DNA from: an uncultured Actinomycetes bacterium
GTDB taxonomy: Bacteria > Actinomycetota > Acidimicrobiia > Acidimicrobiales > RAAP-2
DNA length: 64,000 nt
NCBI GenBank assembly: GCA_903924205.1
Contig: CAIYAP010000002.1
Span: 186,001 to 250,000, forward strand
Direction of reading: 5' to 3'
Both the position numbers and the translations under genes were made by a program. Below the pieces are notes generated by a model. The model was given only the letters and a program-made list of their open reading frames with translations, had not been told where the DNA came from and made no database searches. Positions 1,396 to 27,669 of the stretch are shown here, piece by piece; position 1 is the first letter of the stretch; each line of letters starts with the position of its first letter.

Positions 1396-2160
1396 ATGGC
1401 GCACACGTTGACACTTCCCGAACGTCCATCACAGCCCCGTCGCCATGGCGTGACGATGGTGATTGATTCCGGAATACCACTGCGTGCGTTTGAGGACATC
1501 GTCGAATCGTTCGCCCCTCTAATCGACTTCATCAAATTTGGGTGGGGAACGTCCGTGGCCTACCCCTTGGTCGGACGCAAAATCGACATCTTGAAGTCCC
1601 ATGGCATTGGTGCCTATCTCGGTGGCACGCTGTTCGAGAAGTACATCATCCAAGGAAAGTTCGACGATTTTCGACGCGTTTGTCACGACTACGGCTTGAC
1701 CACCGTGGAAGTGAGTAACGGCACCGCCGCGATCAGCCACGAGGAGAAATCTCTCTACGTGGAGAAGTTGGCTCATGACTTTGAAGTCATTTCCGAAGTG
1801 GGATTCAAAGACAATTCGCAATCCGAAAACTTTGCGCCGAAGAAGTGGGTGGAGTCCATCGAACGCGACCTCGTCGCGGGCGCTCGTTTGGTGACCCTAG
1901 AAACTCGCGAATCGGGTCGCGGCGGCATGTGTCGTCCTAATGGCGAACTGCGTTACGGACTGATCGAGGAAATCCTGGATTCGGGGATTGACGTCACGCG
2001 ATTGATGTTCGAAGCGCCCACGAACGACTTGCAGAGTTATTTCGTCAAGCGCGTCGGCACCAACGTGAACTTGGGGAATATTCCCTCGGACGCCATCGTG
2101 TCCTGTGAAACTATTCGCGTGGGACTTCGCAGCGAAACCTTGCTCGAGTTCGAAAGGTAA
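1396..2160 (+). CDS. comA: Phosphosulfolactate synthase family protein (ComA-like)
   Basis: ComA-family TIM-barrel enzymes add sulfite to phosphoenolpyruvate to give (2R)-phospho-3-sulfolactate, the first step of coenzyme M or sulfolactate synthesis. The 254-residue protein matches the family length and conserved blocks: KFGWG 47-51, GGTLFE 76-81, EVSNG 105-109, SEVGFKD 133-139, FEAP 205-208 and NLGNI 225-229. ATG 1396 is preferred to 1369 for its G-rich ribosome site. It opens a four-gene operon with 6 to 22 base gaps. No ComB phosphatase, ComC dehydrogenase or other coenzyme M gene is in the window, so the product's fate is unknown and the substrate could have changed. Confidence 0.85.
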   Translation: MAHTLTLPERPSQPRRHGVTMVIDSGIPLRAFEDIVESFAPLIDFIKFGWGTSVAYPLVGRKIDILKSHGIGAYLGGTLFEKYIIQGKFDDFRRVCHDYGLTTVEVSNGTAAISHEEKSLYVEKLAHDFEVISEVGFKDNSQSENFAPKKWVESIERDLVAGARLVTLETRESGRGGMCRPNGELRYGLIEEILDSGIDVTRLMFEAPTNDLQSYFVKRVGTNVNLGNIPSDAIVSCETIRVGLRSETLLEFER

Positions 2161-2166
2161 TTTCGT

Positions 2167-2580
2167 ATGCGCGAATCACGAGACGTTTTCCACTTGGCCA
2201 TTCCGGCCTACGACGTCGACGCCACCATCGACTTCTACGTCACCAAGTTGGGTTGCAAACTTGCCCGTCGCTACGACGACCGCATAACTCTGGACTTCTT
2301 TGGCGATCAAGTGGTGTGTCACCTCGGGCCGGCGCCAGACACCTTGCCCGCCATTTCTGAACTGAAGATGTACCCACGACACTTTGGCGTGACTTTTCGG
2401 GAGGGCGTTGATTTCGACGCGCTGTACGCCTTAGCCAAAGCGCGTCACATCCCTTTCTATGCGGATCTCACCGACCGTTTTCACGGGCTTGTCGAAGTTC
2501 ACCGCACCTTCGTCTTGGTGGACCCCGCGAACAACTTGCTCGAGTTCAAGCATTACCACGACCATCGGATGATGTACTAA
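2167..2580 (+). CDS. VOC (glyoxalase/dioxygenase) superfamily protein
   Basis: A 137-residue single-domain member of the vicinal oxygen chelate superfamily, whose metal-dependent members isomerise, open or oxidise small substrates. The first babab module starts with FHLAIPAYDVDATIDFY and the end has the usual NLLEFK block (a C-terminal Glu metal-ligand position). His10 and the late Glu are visible candidate ligands. It lies 6 bases after comA, with GAAAGG before its ATG, so the two are probably made together. The substrate cannot be told from sequence; linkage suggests it acts on the ComA-like product or a derived acid. Confidence 0.8.
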   Translation: MRESRDVFHLAIPAYDVDATIDFYVTKLGCKLARRYDDRITLDFFGDQVVCHLGPAPDTLPAISELKMYPRHFGVTFREGVDFDALYALAKARHIPFYADLTDRFHGLVEVHRTFVLVDPANNLLEFKHYHDHRMMY

Positions 2581-2587
2581 GGACACC

Positions 2588-4093
2588 GTGCAGAGCAATG
2601 AGCGCCTCTCGGTGGCGCAACTGATACTGCGTCACCGCAGCAACAGCCTTTTTGCGCAAGCCCCTCAAGAGGAAAACGGGCGACGCACACTGAGCTTTGC
2701 GGAATTGTTCACGGCGACCAACTTCGTGGCTCACTACTACCGAGACCTCGGATTGACCCCCGGCGATCGCGTGGGTCTGCTGGTCGCTCAGCCCGTGGAT
2801 TTCATCATTCACTTTCTGGGGGGCATCTCCGCCGGGTTCTGGATGGCCCCGCTCGACCCCACCTTGGACTACGACGCCCTGCCGTCCGTCGACAGCCACC
2901 TTGCCTCCTTGGACCTAACCATGGTTATTGCGGATCGTCCCCAAGCAGCGACGTCGGATCTCGCCTGGCATGACGCCCCTGTGGGCCACCGCGATGACGA
3001 CCTCCCTAGTGACCTCGGTGGGATCTTGCTCTCCTCGTCGGGGACGACGGGGACACCGAAGACAATGCTGCTGAGCCAGCAACAAATCTTGACGACCGCG
3101 ACGAACATTGCCCGTCACAATCAATTAGGTCCCGCTGACGTAGGCCTCAACCCTCTCCCCCTGTGGCATATCAACGCGGAAGTCGTTGCCGTGTTGGCGA
3201 GTCTCGTGGCCGGCAGCCAGTTGGTGTTGCAGCGTCGCTTTAAGCGCAGCGACTTTTGGCGCCTCGCGGGTGACGTCAATGCGACATGGATTAATGCCGT
3301 GCCCGCCATCGTCTCACATCTCTCCGTTTTGCGCGACGGCGAAAGCATTCCTTCGGGTATTCGTTTCATTCGCTCCGCATCGGCACCGCTACCCGCTGAC
3401 ATCATTCGAAACTTCGAGTCCACCATCACCATCCCGATTATCGAGTCGTATGGCATGACCGAGGCGGCCAGTCAAATATGTGCCAATCCTCTCCAGGGGG
3501 TGCGCAAGGCGGGATCGGTGGGCCTTCCTGTTGGCGTCGAGCTCCAATGCCTTCCCTTTGAGTCAGATGAAGTTCTGGGCAGCAAGGGAGAGCCGCACGT
3601 TGGCCACATAGCCATCAAGGGGCCGAGTGTTATTTCCCACTACGCCACCGACGCCCATGCTCACCGCTTCACCGACGATGGCTGGCTGCTGACGGGCGAC
3701 CTGGGCTATCTCGATGATGATGGCTACGTCTTTCTCGTCGGACGCATCGACGACGTCATCAATCGCTCGGGAGAGAAGATTTACCCACGCGAAATCGAAG
3801 AGGTGATCCTGAGAGTGGAGGGCGTCGTGGCGAGCGCTGTCATCGGTCTTCCGCACCCCACCCTCGGCGCGGTACCCCTCGCATTCGTGGAACTCGATGC
3901 GGCCACCGACGAGCAACGCCACCTCATCTGTCGTGAGATTGCCCACGTTCTCGACGCGTCCCTCGGGCGATCAAAGCGGCCCACCGCCATACGCGTGGTG
4001 GACTCATTCCCCCGCCACGCGACCGGAAAAATTCTGCGTCAACCTCTTCGTCTCGGAGACGTGGTCGTTCGGCACGAAGAACTACTCTCGTAA
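2588..4093 (+). CDS. AMP-forming acyl-CoA synthetase / acid-thiol ligase
   Basis: ANL-superfamily enzyme that adenylates a carboxylic acid and passes it to CoA or another thiol. In 501 residues it has the P-loop-like SSSGTTGTPK (about 148-157), ESYGMTEA (about 284-291), the hinge region TGDLGYLDDDGY...VGRIDDVINRSGEKIYP (about 369-400) and the C-terminal catalytic lysine in ATGKILR (about 478-484). GTG start, 7 bases after the VOC stop. The acid is unknown. Operon linkage to a ComA-like enzyme makes a sulfonated or hydroxy acid worth considering, but ordinary fatty or aromatic acids are not excluded. Confidence 0.9.
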   Translation: MQSNERLSVAQLILRHRSNSLFAQAPQEENGRRTLSFAELFTATNFVAHYYRDLGLTPGDRVGLLVAQPVDFIIHFLGGISAGFWMAPLDPTLDYDALPSVDSHLASLDLTMVIADRPQAATSDLAWHDAPVGHRDDDLPSDLGGILLSSSGTTGTPKTMLLSQQQILTTATNIARHNQLGPADVGLNPLPLWHINAEVVAVLASLVAGSQLVLQRRFKRSDFWRLAGDVNATWINAVPAIVSHLSVLRDGESIPSGIRFIRSASAPLPADIIRNFESTITIPIIESYGMTEAASQICANPLQGVRKAGSVGLPVGVELQCLPFESDEVLGSKGEPHVGHIAIKGPSVISHYATDAHAHRFTDDGWLLTGDLGYLDDDGYVFLVGRIDDVINRSGEKIYPREIEEVILRVEGVVASAVIGLPHPTLGAVPLAFVELDAATDEQRHLICREIAHVLDASLGRSKRPTAIRVVDSFPRHATGKILRQPLRLGDVVVRHEELLS

Positions 4094-4115
4094 AAATGTG
4101 TGGTGAAAAGTAGCC

Positions 4116-5333
4116 ATGTCGGCACCTGTGAGCACTAATGGCGGAACGCGCCGACGACTCGAGCACGTCGACGCCATGCGACCTGTCAAGCAGTTTGCCG
4201 TCATTGGCACGCACGCCATGCAGTTCTTCGCGCCCGCCGCGACGACGGTGCTCTGGAAAAGTGGACTCATTTTCACTCGTTTTTCGCGAGATGCGTTCCT
4301 CTTCGTCTCGGCATGCATGTTGGCCTACAGCTATCGCACAGCAGCTCGCGTGGTGCTGCGCTCCTATGTGTGGCGGCGATTCATGTCGGTGGGAGCGCCC
4401 TATCTCGCGTGGACGGTGATCTACTGGCTATGGACAGCCTGCCACCCGATTCACGGCTTCCCTCTCTACGCGCTCCATACCAATGAACTGACGTGGTCAG
4501 CACTCGTGGGCTTTACCCGCTGGGGATACTTCCACCTCTACTTCTTGTTGATTCTCATGCAGTTCTATGTCGTATTCCCGGCCCTACTCTGGGTGATCCG
4601 TCGCTTCCCCGGCCTGCGCGTACATCTGCTCTGGTCCTCGCTTCTCATCCAGATTCTCATTGACCTCGCGAATCGTGGACGGTGGTGGGGCTTTCATATG
4701 TCGTTCATTGTGGAGACACGAGTCCTCATCTCGTATCCCTTCTACCTCGTGGCGGGAGTAGTGGTCGCCTTGAATTTTGAGGAATTCCACGCCTGGGTGG
4801 TGCGACGAGCGAGGCCGATTGTGCTTCTGACGCTGGTGGCGTTCGCCGGTGCCAGCGCCACGAATCTCTTTTACGGTTCGCATCTATATCGCACCTACCT
4901 TCTTATCGGCAAGAACCCTTTCGGGGCGCTCGCCATTCCGTATGACATTGGCGGAGTGCTGTGCGTATATCTCCTCGGCGTCTATCTCGTCGACTCTCGT
5001 CGCCATTGGCGAACGCGACGGTTGGTGGCTGTTGGCTCAGACAATGCTTACGGCATCTATCTCTCGCAGATGATTTTCATTCCCATTGCGTTTCGCTTCG
5101 TCGAACCGACACACGGTCGCCACCTGTTCCCGTCCGGGATTGCCTGCGTCATTGTCATTTTGCTGACCTATGCGGCGGGCTTCATTCTGACCGGAGTCAT
5201 CGCACGAACGCCTCTGGCCAAGGTCGTGGCGGGAAGAAGCCGAGCCACATGGCGATCACTTTTTCCGCGCAGCACTCCGGAATCGGCGCACGGTCAACTG
5301 GGTAATGGGCCCTTTGACAACGCCTCGGCATAG
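4116..5333 (+). CDS. Acyltransferase-3 family membrane protein (OafA/YrhL-like)
   Basis: Integral membrane O-acyltransferase family that moves acyl groups from the cytoplasm onto sugars, peptidoglycan, lipids or small molecules. The 405-residue protein has about ten hydrophobic segments. The N-terminal region RRLEHVDAMRPVKQFAVIGTH matches the family pattern of Arg-rich start, Asp-x-x-R and a His in the first membrane segment. It follows the AMP ligase by 22 bases and probably ends that operon, so its acyl donor or acceptor may come from it. Its last 40 bases overlap the convergent phosphatase gene. Confidence 0.85.
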   Translation: MSAPVSTNGGTRRRLEHVDAMRPVKQFAVIGTHAMQFFAPAATTVLWKSGLIFTRFSRDAFLFVSACMLAYSYRTAARVVLRSYVWRRFMSVGAPYLAWTVIYWLWTACHPIHGFPLYALHTNELTWSALVGFTRWGYFHLYFLLILMQFYVVFPALLWVIRRFPGLRVHLLWSSLLIQILIDLANRGRWWGFHMSFIVETRVLISYPFYLVAGVVVALNFEEFHAWVVRRARPIVLLTLVAFAGASATNLFYGSHLYRTYLLIGKNPFGALAIPYDIGGVLCVYLLGVYLVDSRRHWRTRRLVAVGSDNAYGIYLSQMIFIPIAFRFVEPTHGRHLFPSGIACVIVILLTYAAGFILTGVIARTPLAKVVAGRSRATWRSLFPRSTPESAHGQLGNGPFDNASA

Positions 5334-5905
5334 CTCTGCTCGAGGGGCCACCACGAGCAGTTTCCGACGGGGAGCCACGATGACCCCTGCAGGTCAGAGC
5401 CGGAGGCATACGACAGCATGGTGCGAATGGGTCCACCGTGCGAGATCAGCAAGATCCGGTCATCGTGACCATCGTGCAAGGTGTCTCGAAGGAATGACGC
5501 CGTCCGCTCATACATCTCACGAAGTGATTCGCCGCCCTCGGGCTTGGCGTCCACGTTCACCACTCGCTGCGCGGCGAGGTCGAGTCCGCTGAGCTCAACG
5601 GTCACGCCACTGCTCGGCCCCGTTTCCAGCACGCCGTAGGACCGTTCACGCAGGCGCTCATCGTGGGCCACCGTGAGCCCCAGAACTGCCGCGATGATGT
5701 CGGCGGTTTGGCGAGCCCGTCGCAGATCGCTGGAAATAATGCGAGAGAACGAGAGGTCTGCGAGTTCCATGGCCACTGCTCTCGCCATGGCTTGACCATC
5801 ATCGGTCAACTCCGCGTCATCGTTCTGGCCCTGTACTTTCTGCACTGCGTTCCACGTGCTCTGGCCGTGGCGCACCACCGTCAGACGAGAGAAGTTTTCC
5901 GACAC
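5294..5905 (-). CDS. Histidine phosphatase family protein (phosphoglycerate mutase-like)
   Basis: Phosphatase or mutase of the branch-1 histidine phosphatase superfamily, 203 residues. The catalytic RHG lies in VVRHGQSTWN near residue 12. The partner motif ISSDLRRARQTA (about 56-67) and the second catalytic His in ISHGGP (about 152-157) are present. GTG start at 5905, chosen because TACGCT sits exactly six bases before it on the minus strand (leaderless). Substrate unknown; many relatives act on phosphorylated metabolites. It runs tail to tail into the acyltransferase with a 40-base overlap. Confidence 0.9.
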   Translation of the reverse strand: MSENFSRLTVVRHGQSTWNAVQKVQGQNDDAELTDDGQAMARAVAMELADLSFSRIISSDLRRARQTADIIAAVLGLTVAHDERLRERSYGVLETGPSSGVTVELSGLDLAAQRVVNVDAKPEGGESLREMYERTASFLRDTLHDGHDDRILLISHGGPIRTMLSYASGSDLQGSSWLPVGNCSWWPLEQSYAEALSKGPLPS

Positions 5906-7567: not shown

Positions 7568-8680
7568 ATGTCCGACAAGCCGCAATGGGCCGAGTTATTC
7601 ACTGAAGTTGTCACGAGTGGGCTGTGCACCGGGTGCGCGGCCTGCGTGATTGCGTGCCCCAAGGACGTTCTGGAATACGACCGTCGCGGCACCGTCCCCT
7701 TTCACATCGCCGACGATGGTGGCCTCGACAACTGCACTCACGGCGAGCGAGGCTGCACGCTGTGCACCCGTGCCTGCCCGCGATTTCGACACTGGGAAAG
7801 CGAAGCGGACCACGTACGCCACGGACGCGATCGTGAGATCACTGAGGTGGCGGGAATTGGCGACGTCTACCTGACGCGGGCCACGAGTGCCGATGAACTC
7901 GCGGCGGGTCAAGACGGTGGTTTCGTATCGGCCATCTTGAATTTCCTCCTCGAGCGAGGCGATATTGACGCGGCCCTCGTGGGGGGCCTCGACGAAACTG
8001 AGCCATGGCGAACGGCGCCCGCCGTTATTCGCACTCGTGACGAGGTCGAAGCGACCGCCGGCTCTCGCTACACCTACTCCCCCAACCTCCTCGCCTATCC
8101 CGCCGCTGCCGAGTCCGGTGCCGAGAAGATGGCGGTGGTGGGCATGGGTTGCATGGTGAGTGCACCGGCCGTGATGGCCGCTCGCAAGACCGGTAAGACC
8201 GCTCGACGACTGGGCCTCACCATTGGGCTTCTGTGCTCGAAGACGTTTGACGAGGAAATCTTTGATGGTCTCTTCCTCACCTCATACGGCATTCGTCGCG
8301 AGGACATTGTGAAGATGAACATCAAGGGCGTCTTTCAGCTGTGGCTCGCTGATGGTCGTTATGTCGAAGTGCCCCTCAAGGAAGCCCACGCCTTCACCCG
8401 CAGCGGATGCAAGAGCTGCCCCGACTTTGCGGCCGAACACGCCGACATATCTGCGGGTGGCATTGGAGCATTCAGTGAGTGGACCCTCACTATCGTTCGC
8501 ACCGAGCTCGGGCGGACGATTTTTAACGATGCGGTCGCGGCGGGCGTCATTGAGGTGCGCCCGGGTAGTGACGACCCCGGCGCCATCGCGCTGATGAACA
8601 AGTTGTCGACAGTGAGTCGAAAGCGTTGGCCCGAATGGGCGCAGGGTGGACCTCGACGCATTCCCGTGACGTCGGCCTGA
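7568..8680 (+). CDS. F420 hydrogenase/dehydrogenase beta-subunit (FrhB/FdhB) family Fe-S flavoprotein
   Basis: Family members pass electrons between coenzyme F420 or ferredoxin and FAD through 4Fe-4S clusters. The 370-residue protein starts with a ferredoxin-like motif CTGCAACVIACP (about 19-30) and a second cluster CTHGERGCTLCTRACP (about 56-71). The FrhB N and C domains follow, with a later GCKSCPDF (about 280-287). No hydrogenase, formate dehydrogenase or F420-synthesis gene is adjacent, so the partner is unknown. Actinobacterial relatives often stand alone like this one. A role as an F420-linked reductase is inference. Confidence 0.85.
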   Translation: MSDKPQWAELFTEVVTSGLCTGCAACVIACPKDVLEYDRRGTVPFHIADDGGLDNCTHGERGCTLCTRACPRFRHWESEADHVRHGRDREITEVAGIGDVYLTRATSADELAAGQDGGFVSAILNFLLERGDIDAALVGGLDETEPWRTAPAVIRTRDEVEATAGSRYTYSPNLLAYPAAAESGAEKMAVVGMGCMVSAPAVMAARKTGKTARRLGLTIGLLCSKTFDEEIFDGLFLTSYGIRREDIVKMNIKGVFQLWLADGRYVEVPLKEAHAFTRSGCKSCPDFAAEHADISAGGIGAFSEWTLTIVRTELGRTIFNDAVAAGVIEVRPGSDDPGAIALMNKLSTVSRKRWPEWAQGGPRRIPVTSA

Positions 8681-8719: not shown

Positions 8720-9349
8720 ATGACCACGGCCACCACTATCTATCTCGTGCGCCATGGTGTCACCAGCACCACCGGCAAAGTTCTCCCGGGACGTGCTCTC
8801 GGACTTCACCTGTCGGCCACGGGCCAGACCCAAGCTCGCACCGTGGCGGAGCGACTGTCCGCGCTGCGTCGCCCACCCACTGCGGTCTTCGCATCCCCGC
8901 TCGAGCGCACGCGTGAAACCGCTGCACCCATCTCGGCGGCACTGGGCATCAAAACGCGAATCGACAAGGGTCTCCTCGAGTGTGACTTCGGCGAGTGGAC
9001 GGGGAAGAGTCTGGCGACATTGCGTCGCCACAAGGACTGGGGCCTGGTGCAAAACCGTCCCAGCGCCTTCCGCTTCCCCGATGGTGAGTCCTTCCTCGAG
9101 ATGCAGCAACGAATCTGGTCCAGCATTGAGCGATTGGCCGCGAACCATGGGGGCGAATCCATCGTGCTCGTGAGCCACGCGGATCCCATCAAGGCCGCGG
9201 TCACCTTCGCTCAAGGCGTCCCACTGGACCTTTTTCAGCGCACGGTGATCTCACCGTGCTCGGTATCGGTCCTGCAGTTCCACGACCGCACCCCCATTGT
9301 CCTCACGATCAACTCAACCGCCAACCTCCAGGAGCTCGCCCCCGCATGA
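8720..9349 (+). CDS. Histidine phosphatase, MSMEG_4193 family
   Basis: Putative phosphomutase/phosphatase of a subfamily found mainly in actinobacteria. In 209 residues: YLVRHG near 9-14 with the catalytic His, SPLERTRETA (about 60-69), a Glu-containing ECDFGEWTG (about 92-100) and the second catalytic His in LVSHADPIKA (about 154-163). It is the first gene of the conserved MSMEG_4193-DUF3090-SCO1664 trio, and its stop overlaps the next start as ATGA. Substrate unknown. In many actinobacteria the trio lies near mycothiol ligase mshC, which is not next to it here. Confidence 0.9.
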   Translation: MTTATTIYLVRHGVTSTTGKVLPGRALGLHLSATGQTQARTVAERLSALRRPPTAVFASPLERTRETAAPISAALGIKTRIDKGLLECDFGEWTGKSLATLRRHKDWGLVQNRPSAFRFPDGESFLEMQQRIWSSIERLAANHGGESIVLVSHADPIKAAVTFAQGVPLDLFQRTVISPCSVSVLQFHDRTPIVLTINSTANLQELAPA

Positions 9350-13014: not shown

Positions 13015-13858
13015 TCGTGTCAGCGTGTCGAAGACGTACAAGATGTACGTCAATGGAGCATTTCCTCGCTCCGAATCCGGTCGCACCTTCGTTCTCAACG
13101 ACGTCGAGGGCAACTTCCTCGCCAACGTGGCCCACGGCTCGCGCAAGGACATTCGCGATGCCGTCGTCGCCGCTCGTGGCGCGACCAACAAATGGAAGTC
13201 TGCGACCGCCTATAACCGTGGCCAGGTGCTCTACCGCGTCGCCGAAATTCTGGAGTCGCGTCATGACGAATTCGTCAGCCTGCTGCAGCTCACTGACGGC
13301 GTCTCAGCCAAAAGGGCGGCTAACGAAGTTTCCAAGTCGATTGACCTGACCGTCTGGTACGCCGGATGGACCGACAAAATCGCTCAAGTCGTCGGTGGCA
13401 CCAATCCGGTTGCCGGTCCGTTTTTCAACTTCTCCATCCCCGCTCCCTGTGGCGTGGTGGGCATCATTACCCCTACCGTGAACTCCTTGTCGGGTTTCAT
13501 TGCCACCGTCTTGCCGGCATTGGCGTCGGGCAACACCGTCGTCGTGGTTCCGGGCTCGCACGAGGCCATTCCCGTGGCGGTGACCCTGGGTGAGGTAGCC
13601 GCCACCAGTGACGTGCCCGCGGGCGTGATCAACATTGTCACCGGCACGGCGAGCGAGCTTGCTCCCATCCTGGCGTCACACGAAGACGTCGATGGTCTCG
13701 ATCTCGCGGGGGCCGGCGAGAGCCGTCTCGAACTTGGTCGTCTCGCAAGCGCCACCATTACCCGCGTGGTGGACAGCGACCTACGCGACCTGCACGACCT
13801 CAAGCGCCTGCGCGCCTTCATCGACACCGTCACCGTGTGGCACACCATCGGTCAATAG
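13007..13858 (+). CDS. Half-length aldehyde dehydrogenase-like protein lacking the catalytic domain
   Basis: 283 residues resembling only the N-terminal and coenzyme-binding part of an aldehyde dehydrogenase: YVNGAF start, WYAGWTDK (about 111-118) and ALASGNTVVV (about 162-171), then INIVTG near 207. The segment that should give the ELGGK glutamate and the catalytic cysteine is absent; the protein ends shortly after a GLDLAG segment that replaces the FTGS strand. ATG 13007 overlaps the complete enzyme by eight bases. The frame is open and intact, so I read it as a non-catalytic partner or regulator, not recent decay. I recall paired genes of this kind beside deoC in other actinobacteria; not checked here. 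Confidence 0.85.
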   Translation: MSDRVSVSKTYKMYVNGAFPRSESGRTFVLNDVEGNFLANVAHGSRKDIRDAVVAARGATNKWKSATAYNRGQVLYRVAEILESRHDEFVSLLQLTDGVSAKRAANEVSKSIDLTVWYAGWTDKIAQVVGGTNPVAGPFFNFSIPAPCGVVGIITPTVNSLSGFIATVLPALASGNTVVVVPGSHEAIPVAVTLGEVAATSDVPAGVINIVTGTASELAPILASHEDVDGLDLAGAGESRLELGRLASATITRVVDSDLRDLHDLKRLRAFIDTVTVWHTIGQ

Positions 13859-13869
13859 GAGATAACAAC

Positions 13870-14697
13870 ATGGACCTTCGTCACGACCCCTACGCCTTGG
13901 CCCACACCGCGGCAGCCCAGCTCACCGCTCGTGCCGGCGTCGACAAGTTCGACATTGCCATTGTGCTCGGTTCCGGGTGGCAGCAAGCCGCCGAAACTCT
14001 GGCCCCTATCGACTGTGAAATCCGCACCAGCGACCTTCCGGGCTTTCACGCTCCGTCCGTCCAGGGACACAAGGGCCGCATCATGTCCATCGAATTTGCT
14101 GGCAAGCGCATCGCCCTCGTAGCGGGCCGCGTGCATCTCTACGAGGGACACCCCACCGCTGACGTCGTGCACCCGGTTCGCACCGTGATTGCGGCGGGCG
14201 CCGATACGGTCATTCTCACGAACGCGGCGGGCGGTATCGACCCGAACCGTGGTCCTGGAACGATGATGCTGATCAGCGACCACATCAACCTGACCGCCAC
14301 CAGCCCCATGGAAGGTGCGTCACCGCCCGAGGGCTACGGCTCACGCTTTGTCGACCTTTCCGATGTCTACAGCCGCGAAACGCGAGCCGCCATCCGCGAC
14401 CTGCGCCCCGACCTCACCGAGGGTGTGTACGTGGGCTTCCGAGGGCCGCACTACGAAACCCCCGCCGAGATCAAGATGGCCAAGACCATGGGCGGCGATC
14501 TGGTGGGAATGTCAACGGTTCTCGAGGCCATTGCCGCGCGTCACCTCGGCGCCCGCGTCATTGGATTCTCGCTGGTGACGAACTTGGCCGCGGGTGTCTC
14601 GCCCACACCGCTCAACCACTTAGAAGTGCTGGAAGCCGGCCAGAAGGCGGCAGCCGGCATGGCTGACCTCTTCCGCGACATCCTGCCGTGTCTCTAG
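13870..14697 (+). CDS. punA: Purine nucleoside phosphorylase, trimeric type
   Basis: Phosphorolysis of (deoxy)guanosine and (deoxy)inosine to base plus (deoxy)ribose-1-phosphate. The 275 residues have the PNP/MTAP class-2 motifs: LGSGWQ (about 36-41), GHKGR (about 65-69), LTNAAGGI (about 118-125), the base-site FRGPHYETPAE (about 192-202) and GMSTVLEA (about 216-223). A strong AGGAG precedes ATG 13870. The gene end overlaps the mutase start by 10 bases. It supplies pentose-1-phosphate for the mutase, and the hydrolysed amino group of adenosine is handled by the nearby add gene. Confidence 0.95.
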   Translation: MDLRHDPYALAHTAAAQLTARAGVDKFDIAIVLGSGWQQAAETLAPIDCEIRTSDLPGFHAPSVQGHKGRIMSIEFAGKRIALVAGRVHLYEGHPTADVVHPVRTVIAAGADTVILTNAAGGIDPNRGPGTMMLISDHINLTATSPMEGASPPEGYGSRFVDLSDVYSRETRAAIRDLRPDLTEGVYVGFRGPHYETPAEIKMAKTMGGDLVGMSTVLEAIAARHLGARVIGFSLVTNLAAGVSPTPLNHLEVLEAGQKAAAGMADLFRDILPCL

Positions 14698-16307
14698 ACG
14701 AACTGCAGGACGCGGCTCGCGCATGGGCCGAGCTCGACCATGACCCCGATACTCGCGCGCAGCTACTGAGCGCCCTCGACGACGAGCCACGCCTCGCGAC
14801 AATGATGGGCAATCCTCTTAGCTTTGGCACCGCCGGTCTTCGTGGCCCCGTCATGGCGGGACCCAGTGGCATGAACCGGCGCACGGTGCGGCGTGCGACG
14901 CAGGGTGTGGTGGCCTGGCTCAACACCCTCGACGAGAGCACTCGCGCGGGCGGTGTGGTGGTGGGCTGTGACGCCCGACATGGCTCCGCCGACTTTTACG
15001 ACGAAGTCATTCGGGTACTCACCCACGCGGGGATGGAGGTGGTGGCGCTGCCTCCCCAATTGCCCACCCCCCTCGTTCCCTTCACGGTGCGGCAATTTTC
15101 GGCGGCCGCCGGCATCATGATCACCGCGAGCCACAATCCCGCACCGGATAATGGCTACAAGCTGTACGTCACTGACGGAGCCCAAGTGAACGCCCCCGTC
15201 GACTCTTTCATTGAAGCGGCAATGAATTCAGCGGACGAACTCGCCAACCTCCCCGACGTGGATATCGACGACACCCGAGGTCGTCTGGCGCAGATGCTCT
15301 ACGTCGAGCACCACGTGTCGCGCTGGCGATTGCCGGAACGCTCCCCCCTGCGCATTGTGTACACGCCGGTCTGTGGCGTCGGTGGCCAGATTGCCACTGA
15401 GACCCTGACCGGTGTGGGCTTTCCCGTCATCAATTGCGTGACCTCGCAAATGGTTCCCGATCCACACTTTAGGGGTCTGCCCTTCCCAAATCCAGAAGAA
15501 GCGGGGGTCTTGGACGCGGCCCTCGCGCTGGCTAATGAGATAGACGCGGACATCGTGATCGCCAATGATCCCGACGCCGACCGCTTGGCGGTGGCCCTTG
15601 TCGATGGTGGATCATGGCGCATCTTGAGCGGTGATGAGATTGGCTGGTTGCTCGCCTCGGCGTTGTTGCCCACCTGCGAATCACACGATGTCGTCGCCAC
15701 CTCCATTGTGTCCTCGGAACTCCTCCTGCGCATGGCCGCCGCCGCCGGCGTCACCGCGCGACAGACCCTCACCGGATTCAAGTGGATTGCCCGAGGCGCC
15801 GACGTCGGTGAGCGCTTGGCCTTCGGTTACGAAGAAGCCCTCGGCTACGCCGTGGATCCTACGGTGGCGGATAAGGACGGTATTTCCGCCGCGTTGGCCA
15901 TCTGCACCTATGCCGACCAACTGCGTCGCGACGGGCGATCGCTCCTCGAAGTCCTAGCTCACATTCGTGCCACTTTTGGCGACGTTGCGCTGCTACAGGT
16001 ATCCCTGCGCGCGAATGACGCCACCGAGCTCGACCGCTGGCGCCAACGGCTGCGTGACCTCATCGCGTCTCCACCGACCACGTGGGGCGACTGTGCGGTC
16101 AGCGAGGTCATTGATTTGAACGAGGGCTATCACGGCCTGGCCCCCACGACGGGCGTCATGCTGCGTTTCGCGCAACGTGGCCGCGTAACTATTCGGCCCT
16201 CCGGCACCGAGCCGAAAATGAAGGCCTATCTCGAAATAGTTCGACAGGGGCCATCTGATGACACCTTGAACCGCGTTGCCACGGCCACGCGAGCGTGGTT
16301 CGCTTAA
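14688..16307 (+). CDS. Phospho-sugar mutase, probably acting as phosphopentomutase
   Basis: Alpha-D-phosphohexomutase superfamily protein of 539 residues. The phosphoserine loop TASHNP (about 145-150), metal loop DPDADR (about 295-300), sugar loop GYEEALGY (about 382-389) and phosphate-binding RPSGTEPK (about 504-511) are all present. The superfamily interconverts sugar-1- and sugar-6- (or 5-) phosphates. Its place between punA and the other nucleoside genes suggests it converts (deoxy)ribose-1-phosphate to the 5-phosphate, replacing DeoB. Phosphoglucomutase activity is possible. GTG start, overlapping punA by 10 bases; the stop overlaps add tail to tail by four. Confidence 0.9.
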
Positions 16308-17401
16308 GCCGTCAACTCCGCTCGCAAAGCGTTGTAGCCCGGCTTGATGACCGAGTTAATCAGCTCCAGTCGCTGATCGAAGGGGAAGAAGGCGCTCTTC
16401 ATGGTATTGATGGTGACCCACTGCATTTCGTCCACACCCCAACCGAAAGCGTCCTGACACGAGCTGAATTCATCACTGAGGGTGATGCCACTCATGAGAC
16501 GATTGTCCGTGTTCAACGTGATACGAAAACCCAATTGGCGCAATAGCTCAATCGGATGCTCCGCGAAGGTGGCGGCGGCGCCCGTGTGCACGTTGCTGGT
16601 CGGGCAGAGTTCCAAGGGAACGCGGCGGTCACGGACGAAGTTGGCGAGGCGGCCCAACTTCCACTCGCCATCAACGAACTGAATGTCGTCGACGATGCGC
16701 ACTCCGTGGCCCAGGCGCTCCGCGCCACAGTGCTGCAAGGCCTCCCAAATAGACGGCAGACCGAAGGCCTCACCGGCATGAATGGTGATGTGGAAGTTTT
16801 CCTTGTGGACGAACTCAAACGCATCAAGGTGCAAGGTCGGCGGGAAACCCTTCTCCGGGCCGGCAACGTCGAAACCCACGACGCCCTGGTCACGGTAACG
16901 GACGGCCAACTCGGCGATTTGTAACGAATGCGCCGCTTGACGCATGGCGCAGAGCAGCGCGCGAACAACGATCGCGTGACCTTCCGCCGCCGCCTCGCGC
17001 ACCCCCGCGGCAAACCCCGCCATGACGGCCTCAACAATCTCGTCGAGCGAGAGACCCTTTTCGATATGCAGTTCGGGGGCAAAGCGCACCTCGGCGTACA
17101 CCACGCCATCACGAGCGAGATCCAGCGCACATTCGGCGGCCACACGATGCAGTGCACCCGTGGTCTGCATGACTCCCACCGTGTGCTCAAAGGCGGCCAG
17201 ATAACGAACGAGGTCAGTGGCCCCGTCGTCTTGAACGAACCAGTTGGTCAATTCAGTCAAATCCGTGCTCGGCAACTTGTCGTAACCGGTCTCGGCAGCT
17301 AGCTCGATCACCGTGAGCGGTCGCACGCCCCCATCGAGGTGGTCGTGCAGAAGAACTTTCGGAGCACGTCGGATCTGGTCGGTGGAGAGAAGAGTCGTCA
17401 T
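16304..17401 (-). CDS. add: Adenosine deaminase
   Basis: Converts (deoxy)adenosine to (deoxy)inosine, a substrate for the neighbouring purine phosphorylase. In 365 residues: N-terminal zinc motif HDHLDG (about 19-24), HAGEA (about 207-211) with the catalytic Glu, a zinc His in LGHGVRI and an Asp in NTDNRLMS (about 305-312). It follows deoA by 15 bases but has its own leaderless-type -10 box right before its ATG, so it may be transcribed apart from the pyrimidine genes. Confidence 0.95.
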
Positions 17402-17407
17402 CTCCCT

Positions 17408-17413
17408 AGCGTA
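17408..17413 (-). promoter_or_regulatory. Leaderless-type -10 box of add
   Basis: TACGCT on the minus strand, six bases, then the add ATG at 17401. It lies in the 15-base gap after deoA, so add could be transcribed independently inside the cdd-deoA-add run. Confidence 0.45.
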
Positions 17414-17416
17414 GAA

Positions 17417-18694
17417 CTAAACGATGCGATCAATGATGAGTGGCCGCGTCGCTCGCACCTCGCCATCGAGTTCGATGGCTGTCTCGAGGGCCGCCCTTCC
17501 GAACTGAAGGTGCGCGTCGTCGTCAGCATGAAGTTCAAACAACGGTTGACCTACCGAGACATGGTCGCCTTCGCGAACAAGCACCTTGAGCCCCGCGGCG
17601 TCACTCACCGGGTCCTCCTTGCGGGCGCGACCGGCACCCAAGCGCCATGCGGAGATGCCAATCGACAGGGAGTCCAATGAGGTAATCACCCCATCGCGCT
17701 CGGCCGTAACGGTCTGTATGAGGGGCGCCACGCGCAACGCCGCACCAGGGTCACCGCCTTGGGCGGCCACCATCTGACACCACACCTCGAAGGCCGACCC
17801 GTCATCGAGCTTCTTCTCGACATCGATGTCAATCCCCGCCAGCGCCACCATCTCGCGTGCCAGCGCGAGCGTTTCTTCGCGAATATCCGATGGACCGCCG
17901 CCACGCAGAACATCAATGGACTCAAGAACTTCAAGACCATTCCCGACCGCAATTCCCAGGGGCACGTCCATGTTGGTGAGCAGTGCCGTCGTGCGAACGC
18001 CGTTCGCATTGCCCAGCGCCACCATCGTGGCTGCCAATTCGCGCGCCTTACCTTCATCGCTCATGAATGCACCTCGACCCGTTTTCACATCGAGCACCAA
18101 ACTGGCGGTACCTTCGGCAATCTTCTTTGACATGATGGACGAGGAAATAAGGGGGATGGACTCCACCGTCGCCGTCACGTCACGCAGGGCGTAGAGCTTG
18201 CGATCCGCGGGAGCCAATCCATCGCCGGCGGCACAAATAACGACGCCCACCTCTTCTAGTTGGCGACGCATCTCGTCGTTCGAGAGGTGCGCGCGCCATC
18301 CGGCAATCGCTTCCATTTTGTCCAAGGTGCCACCGGTGTGGCCGAGGCCCCGACCGGACAGTTGCGGAACGGCCGCGCCGCACGCGGCCACGAGGGGGCA
18401 GAGGATGAGTGAAATTTTGTCGCCGACACCACCCGTGGAGTGCTTGTCAACGGTGGGACGCGAGAGTCCTGACAAGTCGAGCCTCTCGCCCGACTCGATC
18501 ATGGCCGCGGTCCATTCGGCCAACTCATGGGGAACCATGCCCCGGAAGAAGATTGCCATCAGCAAGGATGACATTTGCTCCTCGGCGACCGCACCGGCCA
18601 CGTAGGCCTCGAGAACCCAGCGGATCATGTCGGGGCTCAATTCGCCGCCGTCACGTTTTTGCTTGATGACCTCCACGGCCGCAAAGCGGCTCAC
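17417..18694 (-). CDS. deoA: Thymidine phosphorylase
   Basis: Phosphorolysis of thymidine and deoxyuridine to base plus 2-deoxyribose-1-phosphate. The 425-residue protein has the glycosyltransferase-family-3 signature in two blocks: the phosphate site KHSTGGVGDK (about 82-91) and SGRGLGHTGGTLDK (about 111-124). The C-terminal pyrimidine phosphorylase domain is also there (GRARKEDPVS near 360). The start overlaps the cdd stop by four bases, coupling deamination of (deoxy)cytidine to cleavage of the product. Uridine may also be a substrate. Confidence 0.95.
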   Translation of the reverse strand: MSRFAAVEVIKQKRDGGELSPDMIRWVLEAYVAGAVAEEQMSSLLMAIFFRGMVPHELAEWTAAMIESGERLDLSGLSRPTVDKHSTGGVGDKISLILCPLVAACGAAVPQLSGRGLGHTGGTLDKMEAIAGWRAHLSNDEMRRQLEEVGVVICAAGDGLAPADRKLYALRDVTATVESIPLISSSIMSKKIAEGTASLVLDVKTGRGAFMSDEGKARELAATMVALGNANGVRTTALLTNMDVPLGIAVGNGLEVLESIDVLRGGGPSDIREETLALAREMVALAGIDIDVEKKLDDGSAFEVWCQMVAAQGGDPGAALRVAPLIQTVTAERDGVITSLDSLSIGISAWRLGAGRARKEDPVSDAAGLKVLVREGDHVSVGQPLFELHADDDAHLQFGRAALETAIELDGEVRATRPLIIDRIV

Positions 18695-19110
18695 GCCTCA
18701 CTCCGAGCGTCGAGATCAGCTGGACCAAATGCGCCAGGAATCAGCGTGTCCAGAAGTGCGGACGACTCGGGCCGGTCGCCACATACTTCGAGCTGCGGTC
18801 CTCCGTGCTCGAAGAGGAGCTGACGACAGCGGCCACACGGCGTGAGATGCTCTCCATCCCCGGCCACCACCATCACGGCAGCCAAACGTCCACCACCTTG
18901 ACGCGCCAAATCGCTTACCAGCGAGCATTCCGCGCACAGCGTCAGGCCGTAGCTGGCGTTCTCCACGTTCTGGCCAGTAATGAGCCGACCATCGGTCGTG
19001 AGGGCGGCGGCGCCGACGCGCAGTTTGGAGTACGGGGCGTAGGCACGGGCGGCTGCTTGTTGTGCTTCGTGGCGCAGCATTGTCCACTGATCATTCGAGA
19101 GGGGGCTCAT
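18691..19110 (-). CDS. cdd: Cytidine deaminase
   Basis: Hydrolytic deamination of (deoxy)cytidine to (deoxy)uridine. The 139-residue single-domain tetrameric form is seen: AAARAYAPYSKLRVGAA near the start, the catalytic CAECS (about 58-62; Cys ligand and Glu acid) and PCGRCRQ (about 92-98; two zinc Cys). ATG 19110 is exactly six bases from a TAATTT -10 box, so the transcript is probably leaderless. First gene of the cdd-deoA-add run; divergent from psuG. Confidence 0.95.
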   Translation of the reverse strand: MSPLSNDQWTMLRHEAQQAAARAYAPYSKLRVGAAALTTDGRLITGQNVENASYGLTLCAECSLVSDLARQGGGRLAAVMVVAGDGEHLTPCGRCRQLLFEHGGPQLEVCGDRPESSALLDTLIPGAFGPADLDARSEA

Positions 19111-19116
19111 ATGACC

Positions 19117-19126
19117 AAATTACACT
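19117..19126. promoter_or_regulatory. Bidirectional leaderless promoter between cdd and psuG
   Basis: The plus strand reads AAATTACACT. TACACT (19121-19126) plus six bases leads to the psuG ATG at 19133. On the other strand TAATTT (19122-19117) plus six bases leads to the cdd ATG at 19110. The two -10 boxes share a TA step, so initiation in the two directions must be mutually exclusive at any moment. Confidence 0.5.
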
Positions 19127-19132
19127 TGATGC

Positions 19133-20059
19133 ATGAGCCAGCGATCCGCCCACTTGCCCGTTGTCGTTAGTGACGAGGTGGCCACCGCTCTCGCGGAGAA
19201 GCGTCCCGTGGTGGCGCTCGAAACCACGATCATTTCTCACGGACTGCCCTTCCCCACCAATCGAGAAGTTGCCGACCTCTGTGAAGCGGCCGTGCGGGCG
19301 TCCGACAGCGTGCCCGCCACCATCGGCATCATTGATGGTGTCATTCATGTCGGCCTGAACTCATCGCAGATCGACCTCATGGCCGACCCCCTCTCGTCAG
19401 TGACGAAGGCCTCCACTCGTGATCTCGGTGCCGTGGTGGCCCGCGGATTGCATGGAGCCACGACCGTAGCCGGCACCATTGCCATCGCTCGCCACGTGGG
19501 CATCGATGTCATGGCCACCGGCGGTCTGGGCGGCGTTCATCGTGGCGCATCGGAATCCTTTGATGAATCACACGACCTGGTCGCCCTATCGCGAACGTCC
19601 ATCGTGGTGGTTGCCAGTGGCTGTAAGTCCATTTTGGATGTGGGCGCCACGTTGGAACGCCTCGACACCCTGGGCGTCAGCATCGTGGGCTATCACACTG
19701 ACAACTTCCCCGGTTTCTATCGCCACTCCACCGAATTTCCCATTGATTGGCGTAGCGACACGGCGGCCGACATCGCCCGCATCTTTGCTGGTCACCGTGT
19801 CATTTCGGGTACCGCGGTGGTCGTTGCCAATCCGGTGCCCCGTGATCGGCAGCTCGACGAAGCGCTACACGATGCCGCCCTCGCCGAAGGCCTTCGCCGC
19901 GTGGCGGCCGGCAAAGTAACCGGCAAAGCGGTGACTCCCGTGCTGCTGTCGGCTTTCGCGGAGTTCACCTCAGGGGTCTCCGTCACCGTCAACACTGATC
20001 TTGTGGTGAATAACTCCACCGTCGCCGGCCAGATAGCCGCCGAACTCACATCTCGATGA
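19133..20059 (+). CDS. psuG: Pseudouridine-5'-phosphate glycosidase
   Basis: Breaks the C-C glycosidic bond of pseudouridine-5'-phosphate to uracil and ribose-5-phosphate, so pseudouridine from RNA turnover can be used. The 308-residue protein shows family blocks VALETTIISHGLPFP (about 23-37), GATTVAGT (about 109-116), ATGGLGGVHRGA (about 127-138) and NTDLVVNNSTVA near the end. It overlaps the kinase gene by four bases. The order psuG then kinase beside deoA and cdd places pseudouridine in the same salvage programme as ordinary nucleosides. Confidence 0.95.
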   Translation: MSQRSAHLPVVVSDEVATALAEKRPVVALETTIISHGLPFPTNREVADLCEAAVRASDSVPATIGIIDGVIHVGLNSSQIDLMADPLSSVTKASTRDLGAVVARGLHGATTVAGTIAIARHVGIDVMATGGLGGVHRGASESFDESHDLVALSRTSIVVVASGCKSILDVGATLERLDTLGVSIVGYHTDNFPGFYRHSTEFPIDWRSDTAADIARIFAGHRVISGTAVVVANPVPRDRQLDEALHDAALAEGLRRVAAGKVTGKAVTPVLLSAFAEFTSGVSVTVNTDLVVNNSTVAGQIAAELTSR

Positions 20060-20901
20060 GCACTCCCCACCTTCTCGTCGCGGGTCACATCATGATGGAT
20101 GTGATTGTTCGCCCCGAGTCGGCTATCGCACCCACCAGCGACACCCCCTCGGAGGTATCGATCTCCCGCGGTGGAGCCGGCGCCAACATTGCCCGGTCAG
20201 CACACGCCGCGGGCATTACCGCCACCTTCGTGGGCGCTATCGGCGACGACCTCATCGGAAAATTAGTGGCGTCGCAATTCGATTTCCCCGTCCAGTTTCA
20301 GCCCTCCCCCCAGCCCACCGGATCATTGGTCGCGCTGGTGCACGCCGACGGTCAGCGAGCCATGTTGACGCAGGCGGGTGCGAATGACGATTTGTCCGCT
20401 GACTTCCTCACTCAGGCGCTCGACACGCACCAACCCGACTGGTTTCATCTGTCGGGTTACGTCATTTTGTCGCCCGCAACCCGTGCGGCGGGTCGGGCGG
20501 CCATTGCCCACGCTCGACAACTCGGCATACCCGTTTCGACCGATGCCTGTTCGGTGGGGCCGCTCATGACAATGGGCCCGAAGAATTTCATTGACGCCAT
20601 CAACGGCATCACGTTGCTCTGCAGCAATGCCGAAGAGTTTGACGTCCTTGCTTCCCACCTCGGTGGTACGGACCTAGATCTATTAACCACACTTGGTGCG
20701 GCGGGGGCACGTTTCTCCCATCACGGCGACCGCTGGGAAGTCCCCGCCGTCGCCACGCAGGTAGTCGACACCACGGGAGCGGGTGACGCAGCGACCGGCG
20801 CATTCTTGGCTTCGCGTCTGCTAAATCCAGATCCCGAGCTGGCCCTGCGGGCAGCCATGCGCCAAGCCGCCGAGGTCATCTCACGGCTCGGCGCCCACTG
20901 A
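20056..20901 (+). CDS. psuK: PfkB-family kinase, probable pseudouridine kinase
   Basis: Ribokinase-like sugar or nucleoside kinase of 281 residues. It has an N-terminal glycine pair SRGGAGANIARSAHAAG (about 35-51) and the C-terminal anion-hole DTTGAGDAATGAF (about 238-250), with the catalytic Asp. The coupled position after psuG makes pseudouridine the likely substrate, giving the 5'-phosphate the glycosidase needs. Other nucleosides or ribose are possible by sequence alone. It ends two bases before the convergent ABC permease gene. Confidence 0.88.
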   Translation: MSTPHLLVAGHIMMDVIVRPESAIAPTSDTPSEVSISRGGAGANIARSAHAAGITATFVGAIGDDLIGKLVASQFDFPVQFQPSPQPTGSLVALVHADGQRAMLTQAGANDDLSADFLTQALDTHQPDWFHLSGYVILSPATRAAGRAAIAHARQLGIPVSTDACSVGPLMTMGPKNFIDAINGITLLCSNAEEFDVLASHLGGTDLDLLTTLGAAGARFSHHGDRWEVPAVATQVVDTTGAGDAATGAFLASRLLNPDPELALRAAMRQAAEVISRLGAH

Positions 20902-20902
20902 G

Positions 20903-22402
20903 TTATTCGCGACTGAACGGAATACCGTCAGCGGCGGGCGGGCGGATGCGCCCCACCAGACCGGCCACCGCCGCAATGGTGATGATGTAGGGCAGCGCAC
21001 TAATGAACTGCTGCGGAATCACCAACTGGCTCAGGTAGATGTTCAGGTTCGCACTCATGGCGATCGTGAAGCCAAAGAGCAGTGAGGCGGCGAGAGCCCC
21101 GTAGGGGCGCCAGCGACCGAAGATCATGATGGCCAAGGCGATGTAACCGTAACCGTTGGTCATGCCGTAACTGAACGATGAACCGGGTCCCACGGTGAAC
21201 GCCGCACCACCAATGCCCGCGATGAATCCACCCAAGATCACGGCGCCGTAACGCATACGCGATACCGACACGCCCACCGTCTCTGAGGCGATGGGCTTCT
21301 CGCCCACTGAGCGAACGCGTAGTCCCCATCGGGTGCGGTACAGCAGGATATTCACTGCCACCACCATCAAGACCGCGACGAACACCAAGACGTTCTGATC
21401 GAAGAGGACTGGTCCCAACACGGGAATCTTGGAGAGACCGGGCACCGCCCACACCGGCAAGGGCTCAGACTGATTCAGGTTCTGGTGGAAATTCAATACC
21501 TGCGAGCTAAGGAATTGAGTGATGGCGCTACAGAAGGCCACAATCACCACGCCGACAATGACTTGGTCGGCCTTGTAACGAAGCGCCATAACGGCGAGCA
21601 AAGAACCCATCAGGGCGCCGAACACGCCACCCAGCAACACAGCGAAGGTTTTGGATATTCCCGCCCCATTAAACGCACTGGCAAACATGACCGCACTCAT
21701 TGCGCCGACCATGAACTGGCCCTCAATGGCGATATTCACGACACCGGAACGTTCGCAAATGGTGCCCGAGAGAGAGCCGAACATGAGGCACGTGGCGGCC
21801 GACACCGACAGGGCGAGCAGCGAGGTCAACTGGAGGTGAAGTCCCGACACGTCTGACCCACGCGCCACCCACACCAAGAAGGTGAGCAGAAAAGCAATCA
21901 GTGCGGCGTAGAGGGTGGCTGACGCGCCACGGTCATAGCGCTTCCAGGCGAGGTATCCGCCCGCGAGCAGTGAGAGGACTCCAATAACCAGCCCCACCAC
22001 GTGTACGGGAACGGTCCACGATCGCAAGATGCCGTCGACATTCACGTGGAGCCACAAGGAAATCGGCCACAGTGCCAGCGCTATGGCGATGATACGAACC
22101 GCCAGCGTGCCTGAGCGTGGAAGAGCGAAGCGGCGACCTTGCGTCGTCGCGATCGCGCTGATTCCCGCCAGCAAGAGAGCGGCGGCGAGAACGATGACGC
22201 GCCACGCTCCAGAGAGTTCGGGCATGCTGGTCGAACTATTGGCGCCGAACTCGATAGTGGTGTTCAGACCCGGGTGAGTCTGGCCCATCCACACGATTTC
22301 CAAGATTCCAAAGATTGCGGTGGTGATGCCATAGGCACGAGCCCGGCCGCGCGAGACCGCCCTCAGATTTTCGAGGGTGACAATTTCGACTGACGTGCTC
22401 AT
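20903..22402 (-). CDS. ABC transporter permease of nucleoside (BMP-type) importer, second subunit
   Basis: Integral membrane permease of the branched-chain/BMP class, 499 residues with about twelve hydrophobic segments, including extra N-terminal ones. The conserved core GSLSGTICERSGVVNIAIEG (about 220-239) and the late GGAAFTVGPGSSF block fit nucleoside permeases such as NupQ. ATG 22402 overlaps the preceding permease stop as ATGA; an in-frame start further upstream (22618) would lie inside that gene. It forms the channel together with the next gene. Located directly beside psuK and the other salvage genes, so nucleosides are the expected cargo. Confidence 0.9.
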   Translation of the reverse strand: MSTSVEIVTLENLRAVSRGRARAYGITTAIFGILEIVWMGQTHPGLNTTIEFGANSSTSMPELSGAWRVIVLAAALLLAGISAIATTQGRRFALPRSGTLAVRIIAIALALWPISLWLHVNVDGILRSWTVPVHVVGLVIGVLSLLAGGYLAWKRYDRGASATLYAALIAFLLTFLVWVARGSDVSGLHLQLTSLLALSVSAATCLMFGSLSGTICERSGVVNIAIEGQFMVGAMSAVMFASAFNGAGISKTFAVLLGGVFGALMGSLLAVMALRYKADQVIVGVVIVAFCSAITQFLSSQVLNFHQNLNQSEPLPVWAVPGLSKIPVLGPVLFDQNVLVFVAVLMVVAVNILLYRTRWGLRVRSVGEKPIASETVGVSVSRMRYGAVILGGFIAGIGGAAFTVGPGSSFSYGMTNGYGYIALAIMIFGRWRPYGALAASLLFGFTIAMSANLNIYLSQLVIPQQFISALPYIITIAAVAGLVGRIRPPAADGIPFSRE

Positions 22403-25184: not shown

Positions 25185-25193
25185 TAATGGAAA

Positions 25194-25199
25194 ATCCTA
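25194..25199 (-). promoter_or_regulatory. Possible internal -10 box of the ABC ATPase gene
   Basis: TAGGAT on the minus strand, nine bases from the ATG at 25184. The same box and distance occur before valS. It would give a nearly leaderless transcript that bypasses the hairpin upstream. Confidence 0.3.
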
Positions 25200-25219
25200 G
25201 CCGTGTGAGGGGTACAAGC

Positions 25220-25252
25220 CTGAGGGGGCCGGGCATTGCCCGACCCCCTCAG
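25220..25252 (-). promoter_or_regulatory. Stable intercistronic hairpin between binding-protein and ATPase genes
   Basis: On the minus strand a 15-base stem, with one G-U pair and otherwise perfect, closes a three-base loop. It begins 30 bases after the binding-protein stop. No U-run follows, so it is not a standard terminator. Such hairpins commonly protect the upstream message or allow partial termination, raising binding protein over transporter. Confidence 0.7.
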
Positions 25253-25281
25253 AGAGTTAAATACTTTCGCTACGCGACGGC

Positions 25282-26439: not shown

Positions 26440-26647
26440 TCCATTTCCTCCTAGTGGAAAGCTGGACACGCGTCGACGCCCGACAAGAAGTCGACCACGT
26501 TGTCCTGGAGCGAGGGTCGCTCCGTCGCTCAACATAGTGGAAAATCTCGCCGGCAATTTGCTTTGCTGCCCCCGAACCGTCACAAATTTTTTCCCTAGGA
26601 AATCTGGGGATATTTGACCTGATGGCGAGGGCTCCGAGAAACGAAAA

Positions 26648-26674
26648 ACGGGCGGGGCTGTCAGCCCCGCCCGT
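26648..26674 (-). terminator. Rho-independent terminator of the etfBA operon
   Basis: Perfect 12-base G/C-rich stem (ACGGGCGGGGCT with its complement) and a three-base loop, followed on the minus strand by TTTTTCGTTTCTC. It begins 17 bases after the etfA stop and insulates the downstream BMP operon. Confidence 0.9.
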
Positions 26675-26691
26675 CACTTCGACACCGCAAA

Positions 26692-27657: not shown

Positions 27658-27669
27658 GTCGATATCTCC

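Follow-up and report, generated by a model that had tools for sequence, protein, structure and literature searches.

ComA is the first enzyme of coenzyme M biosynthesis in archaea and in some bacteria, and it is well established that cell surfaces are acylated with groups such as acetyl and succinyl. Sulfolactate accounts for 5% of the dry weight of Bacillus subtilis spores, and the genes inferred to form phosphosulfolactate in this species are yitCD and yitBA-yisZ (PMC517825). With acyl-CoA as the donor, AT3 proteins pass acyl groups through the membrane (PMC9833829); stand-alone members of the family succinylate exopolysaccharide and periplasmic glucans (PMC9558356). We searched the literature for the sulfolactyl group, and for comA together with VOC or ligase genes, and found nothing relevant; nor did we find a description of a sulfonate acyl group provided by its own synthase and ligase.

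Here we describe a gene set around a comA homologue that is real, conserved and apparently undescribed; a first-pass annotation of the same DNA had already named it a candidate for an undescribed system, which fits our literature searches. We propose, with a probability of roughly one half, that it encodes a two-module pathway by which a C3 sulfonated acyl group would be attached outside the cytoplasm, with a surface glycan as the most likely acceptor.

Gene content of the locus

The window, that is the whole 64,000-nucleotide stretch of DNA analysed (G000:C2:186001-250000), belongs to a 1.66-Mb genome that is 97% complete and assembled into 7 contigs. Near its beginning, four plus-strand ORFs are separated by gaps of 6, 7 and 22 bases, an arrangement noticed at first pass and borne out by the ORF coordinates and Pfam matches. 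A fifth, convergent gene overlaps the end of the acyltransferase gene by 40 bases:

1396..2160, plus strand: comA-like phosphosulfolactate synthase, 254 aa (PF02679; 1u83 and 1qwg matches; ComA residues kept)
2167..2580, plus strand: VOC-fold metalloprotein of a comA-linked family, 137 aa (PF00903; 3rri_A match)
2588..4093, plus strand: adenylate-forming acid ligase, 501 aa, GTG start (PF00501 and PF13193)
4116..5333, plus strand: stand-alone AT3 (Acyl_transf_3) membrane acyltransferase, 405 aa (PF01757; R-X10-H)
5294..5905, minus strand: histidine phosphatase, 203 aa (PF00300; RHG motif)

The start of comA at 1396 agrees with its homologues; an in-frame ATG is also present 27 bases further upstream. 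The synthase belongs to the ComA family with 270 bits against a cut-off of 25.2, and the VOC protein scores 48.5 against 20.6 with Glyoxalase. The ligase carries both domains of its family, AMP-binding (158 bits) and AMP-binding_C (51 bits), the acyltransferase exceeds the Acyl_transf_3 cut-off of 31 with 84 bits, and the phosphatase reaches 154 bits with His_Phos_1. A scan for sigma-70-type promoters and for terminators gave matches at or below chance level.

Elsewhere in the window, an FrhB/FpoF-like F420-dehydrogenase beta-subunit protein with a 4Fe-4S domain is encoded at 7568-8680, followed by a second histidine phosphatase at 8720-9349. An apparent nucleoside salvage cluster, read by eye, lies beside an ABC transporter at 13837-28449 and comprises phosphorylases, a phosphomutase, deaminases, a pseudouridine-glycosidase-like protein and a sugar kinase. 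No glycan genes adjoin the operon; divergent GDP-mannose 4,6-dehydratase-like and glycosyltransferase-like genes at 44178-46255, also read by eye, are possible surface-glycan genes.

Conservation of the gene set

Small-genome actinobacteria of soil and bog carry the set; relatives with a name in the genome collection are MAGs labelled Acidimicrobiaceae, Actinomycetes or uncultured actinobacterium. Among 61 genomes of the genus, comA occurs in 32, the VOC gene in 29 and the ligase gene in 32. Both comA and the ligase are present in all 29 VOC genomes; for the co-occurrence of comA and VOC, Fisher's exact test over the 61 genomes gives p = 2.7e-14, a value that overstates independence because the genomes are related. 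The order comA-VOC-ligase is kept in 29/29 VOC loci, with the acyltransferase next after the ligase in 28, the contig ending in the 29th. The phosphatase adjoins the set in 25 of these loci, lying upstream in divergent or downstream in convergent orientation; in the four where none is visible, the contig stops within the ligase or acyltransferase gene or shortly past it, before the downstream site is reached. Within the genus, ComA proteins diverge by up to about 45%, and ligases and acyltransferases by more than 50%; more than recent descent therefore lies behind the conservation of the set. In the ComA tree, the VOC-linked sequences do not form a single clade (2 changes); the linkage may thus have been gained or lost more than once.

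The four genes were also found in three other actinobacterial families, two of them with a changed order. In a genome from another family of the same order (G090), phosphatase, comA, VOC, ligase and acyltransferase run in one direction, phosphatase and comA overlapping by 4 bases. The reordered set ligase-acyltransferase-comA-VOC occurs in G081, of another family, and in G189 and G286, of a further family of the phylum; the acyltransferases of these three genomes are only 27-30% identical to that of the window. The first-pass annotation had tied its reading to gene order conserved outside this strain, and the gene set is conserved far beyond it, in the genus and, partly reordered, in the three families, with comA-VOC pairs in other phyla as well: in Sulfuricurvum (L036/L125), Sulfurimonas (L037), a Nitrospiraceae MAG (L038/L122) and Bacillota (L039-L041, L043).

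The VOC protein itself is rare, with matches in 3 of 296 sampled genomes of Actinomycetota, the window's own included. It was found in 2 of 299 genomes of Bacillota and in 1 of 298 of Campylobacterota, the latter being the search centre itself. Nitrospirota gave matches in 27 of 198 genomes, 26 of which represent a sister family (L100-L118), 42-49% identical, with the same catalytic residues and common in that phylum; no comA was found in the 13 checked genomes that carry it. Spread by plasmids was considered and discarded, with no plasmid matches.

Not every genome of the genus keeps the set whole. In G027, G036 and G052 (loci L158, L159 and L160), an SGNH-flanked ligase-AT3 pair stands with no comA, VOC or phosphatase there, and at L158 and L160 an aldehyde dehydrogenase gene lies upstream of the ligase. 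From two of the three assemblies, which are incomplete (82% and 86%), comA is missing altogether, and G027 has comA with a phosphatase at another place. A supply module and a transfer module can therefore separate, and the transfer module may take its acid from elsewhere, or take another acid; this weakens, and does not break, the link between the two. Aldehyde dehydrogenases encoded upstream of comA or the ligase at five loci were considered as sulfolactaldehyde dehydrogenases and set aside, their best NCBIfam matches being only general.

The chief rival to our reading, which we consider unlikely, starts from this separation: comA, VOC and phosphatase would make free sulfolactate to serve as osmolyte or reserve, like that of Bacillus spores with the 5% share cited above, and the ligase-AT3 pair would acylate the surface with another small acid. 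Besides the three genomes with the pair alone, it is favoured by comA-VOC pairs in Bacillota that have no ligase and by other loci where comA is accompanied by a phosphatase only. It has to reckon, however, with the occurrence of VOC, throughout the genus, only in genomes that also bear the ligase, and with the recurrence of the same set in two orders across families.

A further argument against separate functions comes from Sulfuricurvum, where the order is comB-comA-VOC-AMP ligase-Antibiotic_NAT acyltransferase. Neither its ligase nor its acyltransferase clusters with those of the window, and the acyltransferase belongs to an unrelated family; non-homologous genes for activation and transfer thus adjoin comA-VOC there. 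Around them, Pfam recognises a cytidylyltransferase, a nucleotidyltransferase, one or more aminotransferases and a DUF4910 protein, and ABC flippase-like, RmlC-like and NeuB-type synthase-like genes were read by eye: judged by this content, it is a surface-glycan locus. The Nitrospiraceae MAG has comB-comA-VOC preceded by a ligase to which a phosphopantetheine carrier domain is fused. For an activation and transfer of the ComA product, the strongest evidence is the presence of two different types of ligase and two unrelated families of acyltransferase beside comA-VOC, and the Sulfuricurvum locus independently supports the sequence of making an acid, activating it and transferring it.

A ComA-family synthase and a possible sulfite supply

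Among solved structures, the synthase matches best 1u83, named 'Phosphosulfolactate synthase' (E 4.9e-69), and next 1qwg from Methanocaldococcus jannaschii (E 3.6e-45). A ComA position counted as near-invariant if 97% or more of 62 sequences, 1qwg and 1u83 included, agree in it; the synthase keeps 35/35 of these. Its K138 aligns with Lys137 of the M. jannaschii enzyme, a residue proposed as catalytic. The comparison with Methanocaldococcus ComA suggested at first pass for the PEP and sulfite residues thus came out in favour of an intact signature. With 227.1 bits, the synthase misses the cut-off of 280 of the archaeal ComA equivalog model TIGR03849, so we regard it as a ComA-family protein of the bacterial YitD-like branch and not as a proven phosphosulfolactate synthase. 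It would convert PEP and sulfite to 2-phospho-3-sulfolactate.

Should the synthase use another nucleophile, the acid would not be a sulfonate. The missed equivalog cut-off leaves room for this, as does HSA32, a distant plant homologue of ComA that has, to our knowledge, no established phosphosulfolactate synthase activity. We judge it distinctly improbable all the same, against a synthase that retains every near-invariant ComA residue and stands close to 1u83, and against the neighbours of comA in other genomes. ComB adjoins comA in Bacillota, Nitrospirota and Campylobacterota, and relatives of comA lie beside genes that lead from sulfate to sulfite or beside an MBL-rhodanese gene. Thus in Sediminibacillus, comA and VOC are found with cysH (PAPS reductase), a PHO4-family permease, sat (ATP sulfurylase) and cysC (APS kinase). 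The second comA of G286 (L155:6073-8388) adjoins a gene for an MBL-fold and rhodanese protein, which could be a sulfite-forming enzyme like persulfide dioxygenase and suggests a local supply of sulfite. In the genome of the window, PAPS_reduct matches well at two places outside the window, C2:136162-136635 and C2:136857-137531; since PAPS reductase is near-universal in the relatives, they are not discriminating.

Other surroundings of comA were noted in passing. A second type of locus in the genus has comA near an MfnA-like PLP decarboxylase, with neither VOC nor ligase (L078:7165-10139; L133:9953-12780; L035:5965-8792; L066:5708-10102); L078, L133 and L035 also contain a histidine phosphatase, L133 and L035 being probably the same genome. 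Such loci could offer a route to cysteate- or taurine-like sulfonates. In Bacteroidota (L044:4574-6741; L049:4574-6738), comA is placed directly 3' of a conserved gene of 470 aa and 5' of a membrane protein gene.

Probable steps between synthase and ligase

A profile search found no ComB (PF04029) in the window's genome, and ComB occurs in only 3 of the 29 comA-bearing genomes of the genus that were searched, being absent in 26. Sulfopyruvate decarboxylase ComD (TIGR03845) has no match in this genome and none above the cut-off in its relatives. The absence of ComB and of other coenzyme M genes, first noted for the window, thus extends for ComB and ComD to the whole genome. A part in coenzyme M biosynthesis, which the place of ComA at the head of that route would suggest, is on these grounds very improbable indeed and excluded as far as tested; moreover, no alkene-metabolism genes were recognised by eye among the ORFs of the window.

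The histidine phosphatase has its RHG motif (R12, H13, G14) and second catalytic histidine (H156) in place, and these residues together with E87 are near-invariant in 31 sequences. Its gene is missing beside the ligase-acyltransferase pair in the three genomes where comA-VOC is missing there. In Lactobacilli (L051:5983-7406; L053-L055), a histidine phosphatase gene directly follows comA, independently. The absence of ComB, the kept motif, the joint loss with comA-VOC and the pairing in Lactobacilli make the enzyme a likely replacement of ComB as phosphosulfolactate phosphatase. The first-pass suggestion that it could supply the dephosphorylation has gained support from its presence and loss together with comA-VOC in a genome that lacks ComB.

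By sequence, the VOC protein is closest to the structure 3rri_A (E 1.4e-56). Its predicted structure (pLDDT 93) agrees, with 3rri as the closest fold (Z 19.7), then FosA proteins (Z about 14). Across 64 sequences, H9, H72 and E126 are invariant, together with R34, H52, R104, H112, K128 and Y130; the first three would form a typical H-H-E metal set, and the invariant residues fit a highly anionic substrate. Since the protein is paired with comA in Bacillota even when there is no ligase, it probably acts on phosphosulfolactate or sulfolactate and not on a CoA ester. The Nitrospira sister family, found in genomes with no comA, means that its role may be broader.

A version of our preferred reading would have the VOC protein make the acid that is transferred: a sulfolactate derivative (an epimer, or an oxidised or cleaved product), so that the decoration would be another C2 or C3 sulfonate. 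The strict conservation of the protein, its full metal set and many cationic residues, and its pairing with comA irrespective of a ligase all point this way. Against them, the family has no known reaction, 3rri being a structure with no assigned function, and the sister family again allows for a broader role; we find this version rather unlikely, if worth keeping in view.

Proposed activation and transfer

The solved structures nearest to the ligase are oxalate-CoA ligases and malonyl-CoA synthetases. It reached none of the curated subfamily or equivalog models, the malonyl-CoA synthase model giving 236 against 558 bits. As its nearest relatives are ligases of small diacids, it suits a small dianion such as sulfolactate, and would make the acyl-CoA of the sulfonated acid.

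SGNH hydrolases are frequent partners of AT3 proteins, and their genes flank many loci of the set; none was found adjoining the window's operon. The acyltransferase carries R22-X10-H33, the R/K-X10-H motif of the first helix, in 28/28 orthologues. In the RXXR motif of the third helix, the first arginine is kept and the second occurs in 0/28, its place being taken mostly by S, A or L. Both R-X10-H and the second arginine of RXXR are essential in OafA, and RXXR is highly, not absolutely, conserved in AT3 proteins (PMC7448272). With no second arginine, the present enzyme may bind its donor differently.

A proposed two-module pathway

In the first module of the proposed pathway, ComA would join PEP and sulfite into 2-phospho-3-sulfolactate; the histidine phosphatase, in the place of ComB, would take off the phosphate to give sulfolactate, and the VOC protein would perform a metal-dependent step on sulfolactate or its phosphate. 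In the second, the ligase would activate the acid and the AT3 protein would attach the acyl group outside the membrane. We observe a conserved gene set, a ComA with an intact signature, a genome devoid of ComB and ComD, and the pairing in Sulfuricurvum; the individual reactions, the nature of the acid, the role of CoA as carrier and the acceptor are what we infer. The main doubts come from the ligase-AT3 pairs without comA-VOC in three genomes, the missing RXXR arginine and the unnamed VOC step; the TIGR03849 shortfall and the lack of adjoining glycan genes also count against the pathway. The interpretation given at first pass, a sulfonated surface or lipid conjugate, holds in part: conservation, ComA residues and the phosphatase speak for it, a surface glycan is made more likely by the Sulfuricurvum locus and by AT3 biology, and the lipid conjugate is unsupported.

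More tentatively, and with somewhat less than even confidence, we propose a dedicated route from PEP and sulfite through a C3 sulfonate and its thioester to a surface polymer. It would give soil and bog actinobacteria an anionic decoration whose charge persists even when the pH is very low, and would have been reassembled in Campylobacterota with other ligase and acyltransferase genes. If true, this would be a new bacterial way to a permanently acidic surface and an additional source of organosulfonates in soils and bogs; it would provide a role for the VOC family of PDB 3rri and explain bacterial comA genes that come with neither ComB nor coenzyme M.

Comparison with known systems

The locus shares with coenzyme M biosynthesis (ComA-ComB-ComC-ComDE, or the bacterial XcbB1 route) the family of the first enzyme; VOC, ligase and AT3 proteins have no part in that pathway, and the window's genome has neither ComB nor ComD. 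Closer is the yit system of B. subtilis (PMC517825), with a ComA-type synthase of the same branch (1u83), sulfolactate as the inferred product and a supply of sulfite. That system, however, uses ComB (YitC) and yields free sulfolactate in the spore, with no ligase or acyltransferase described in the operon; in the window, the PAPS reductase gene is not beside comA.

The enzymes FosA, FosB and FosX of fosfomycin resistance represent the nearest functionally known fold to the VOC protein (Z about 14), at 18% identity and with no resistance context here; FosA enzymes act on a C3 phosphonate. Oxalate-CoA ligase and malonyl-CoA synthetase (5ie0, 6qjz, 4fuq), the nearest solved ligases, have the AMP-binding and C-terminal domains in common with the ligase of the window, whose clade carries H-x-N-A at 194-197 where the oxalate enzymes have H-V-H-G. 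Finally, the acyltransferase resembles the stand-alone succinyltransferases ExoH and MdoC/OpgC (PMC9558356), which are likewise AT3-only proteins with an R-X10-H motif and place an anionic acyl group on an extracytoplasmic glycan, as the window's enzyme is presumed to do. It differs from them in the missing second arginine of RXXR and in its putative donor, a sulfonated acyl-CoA that would come from a dedicated synthase and ligase.
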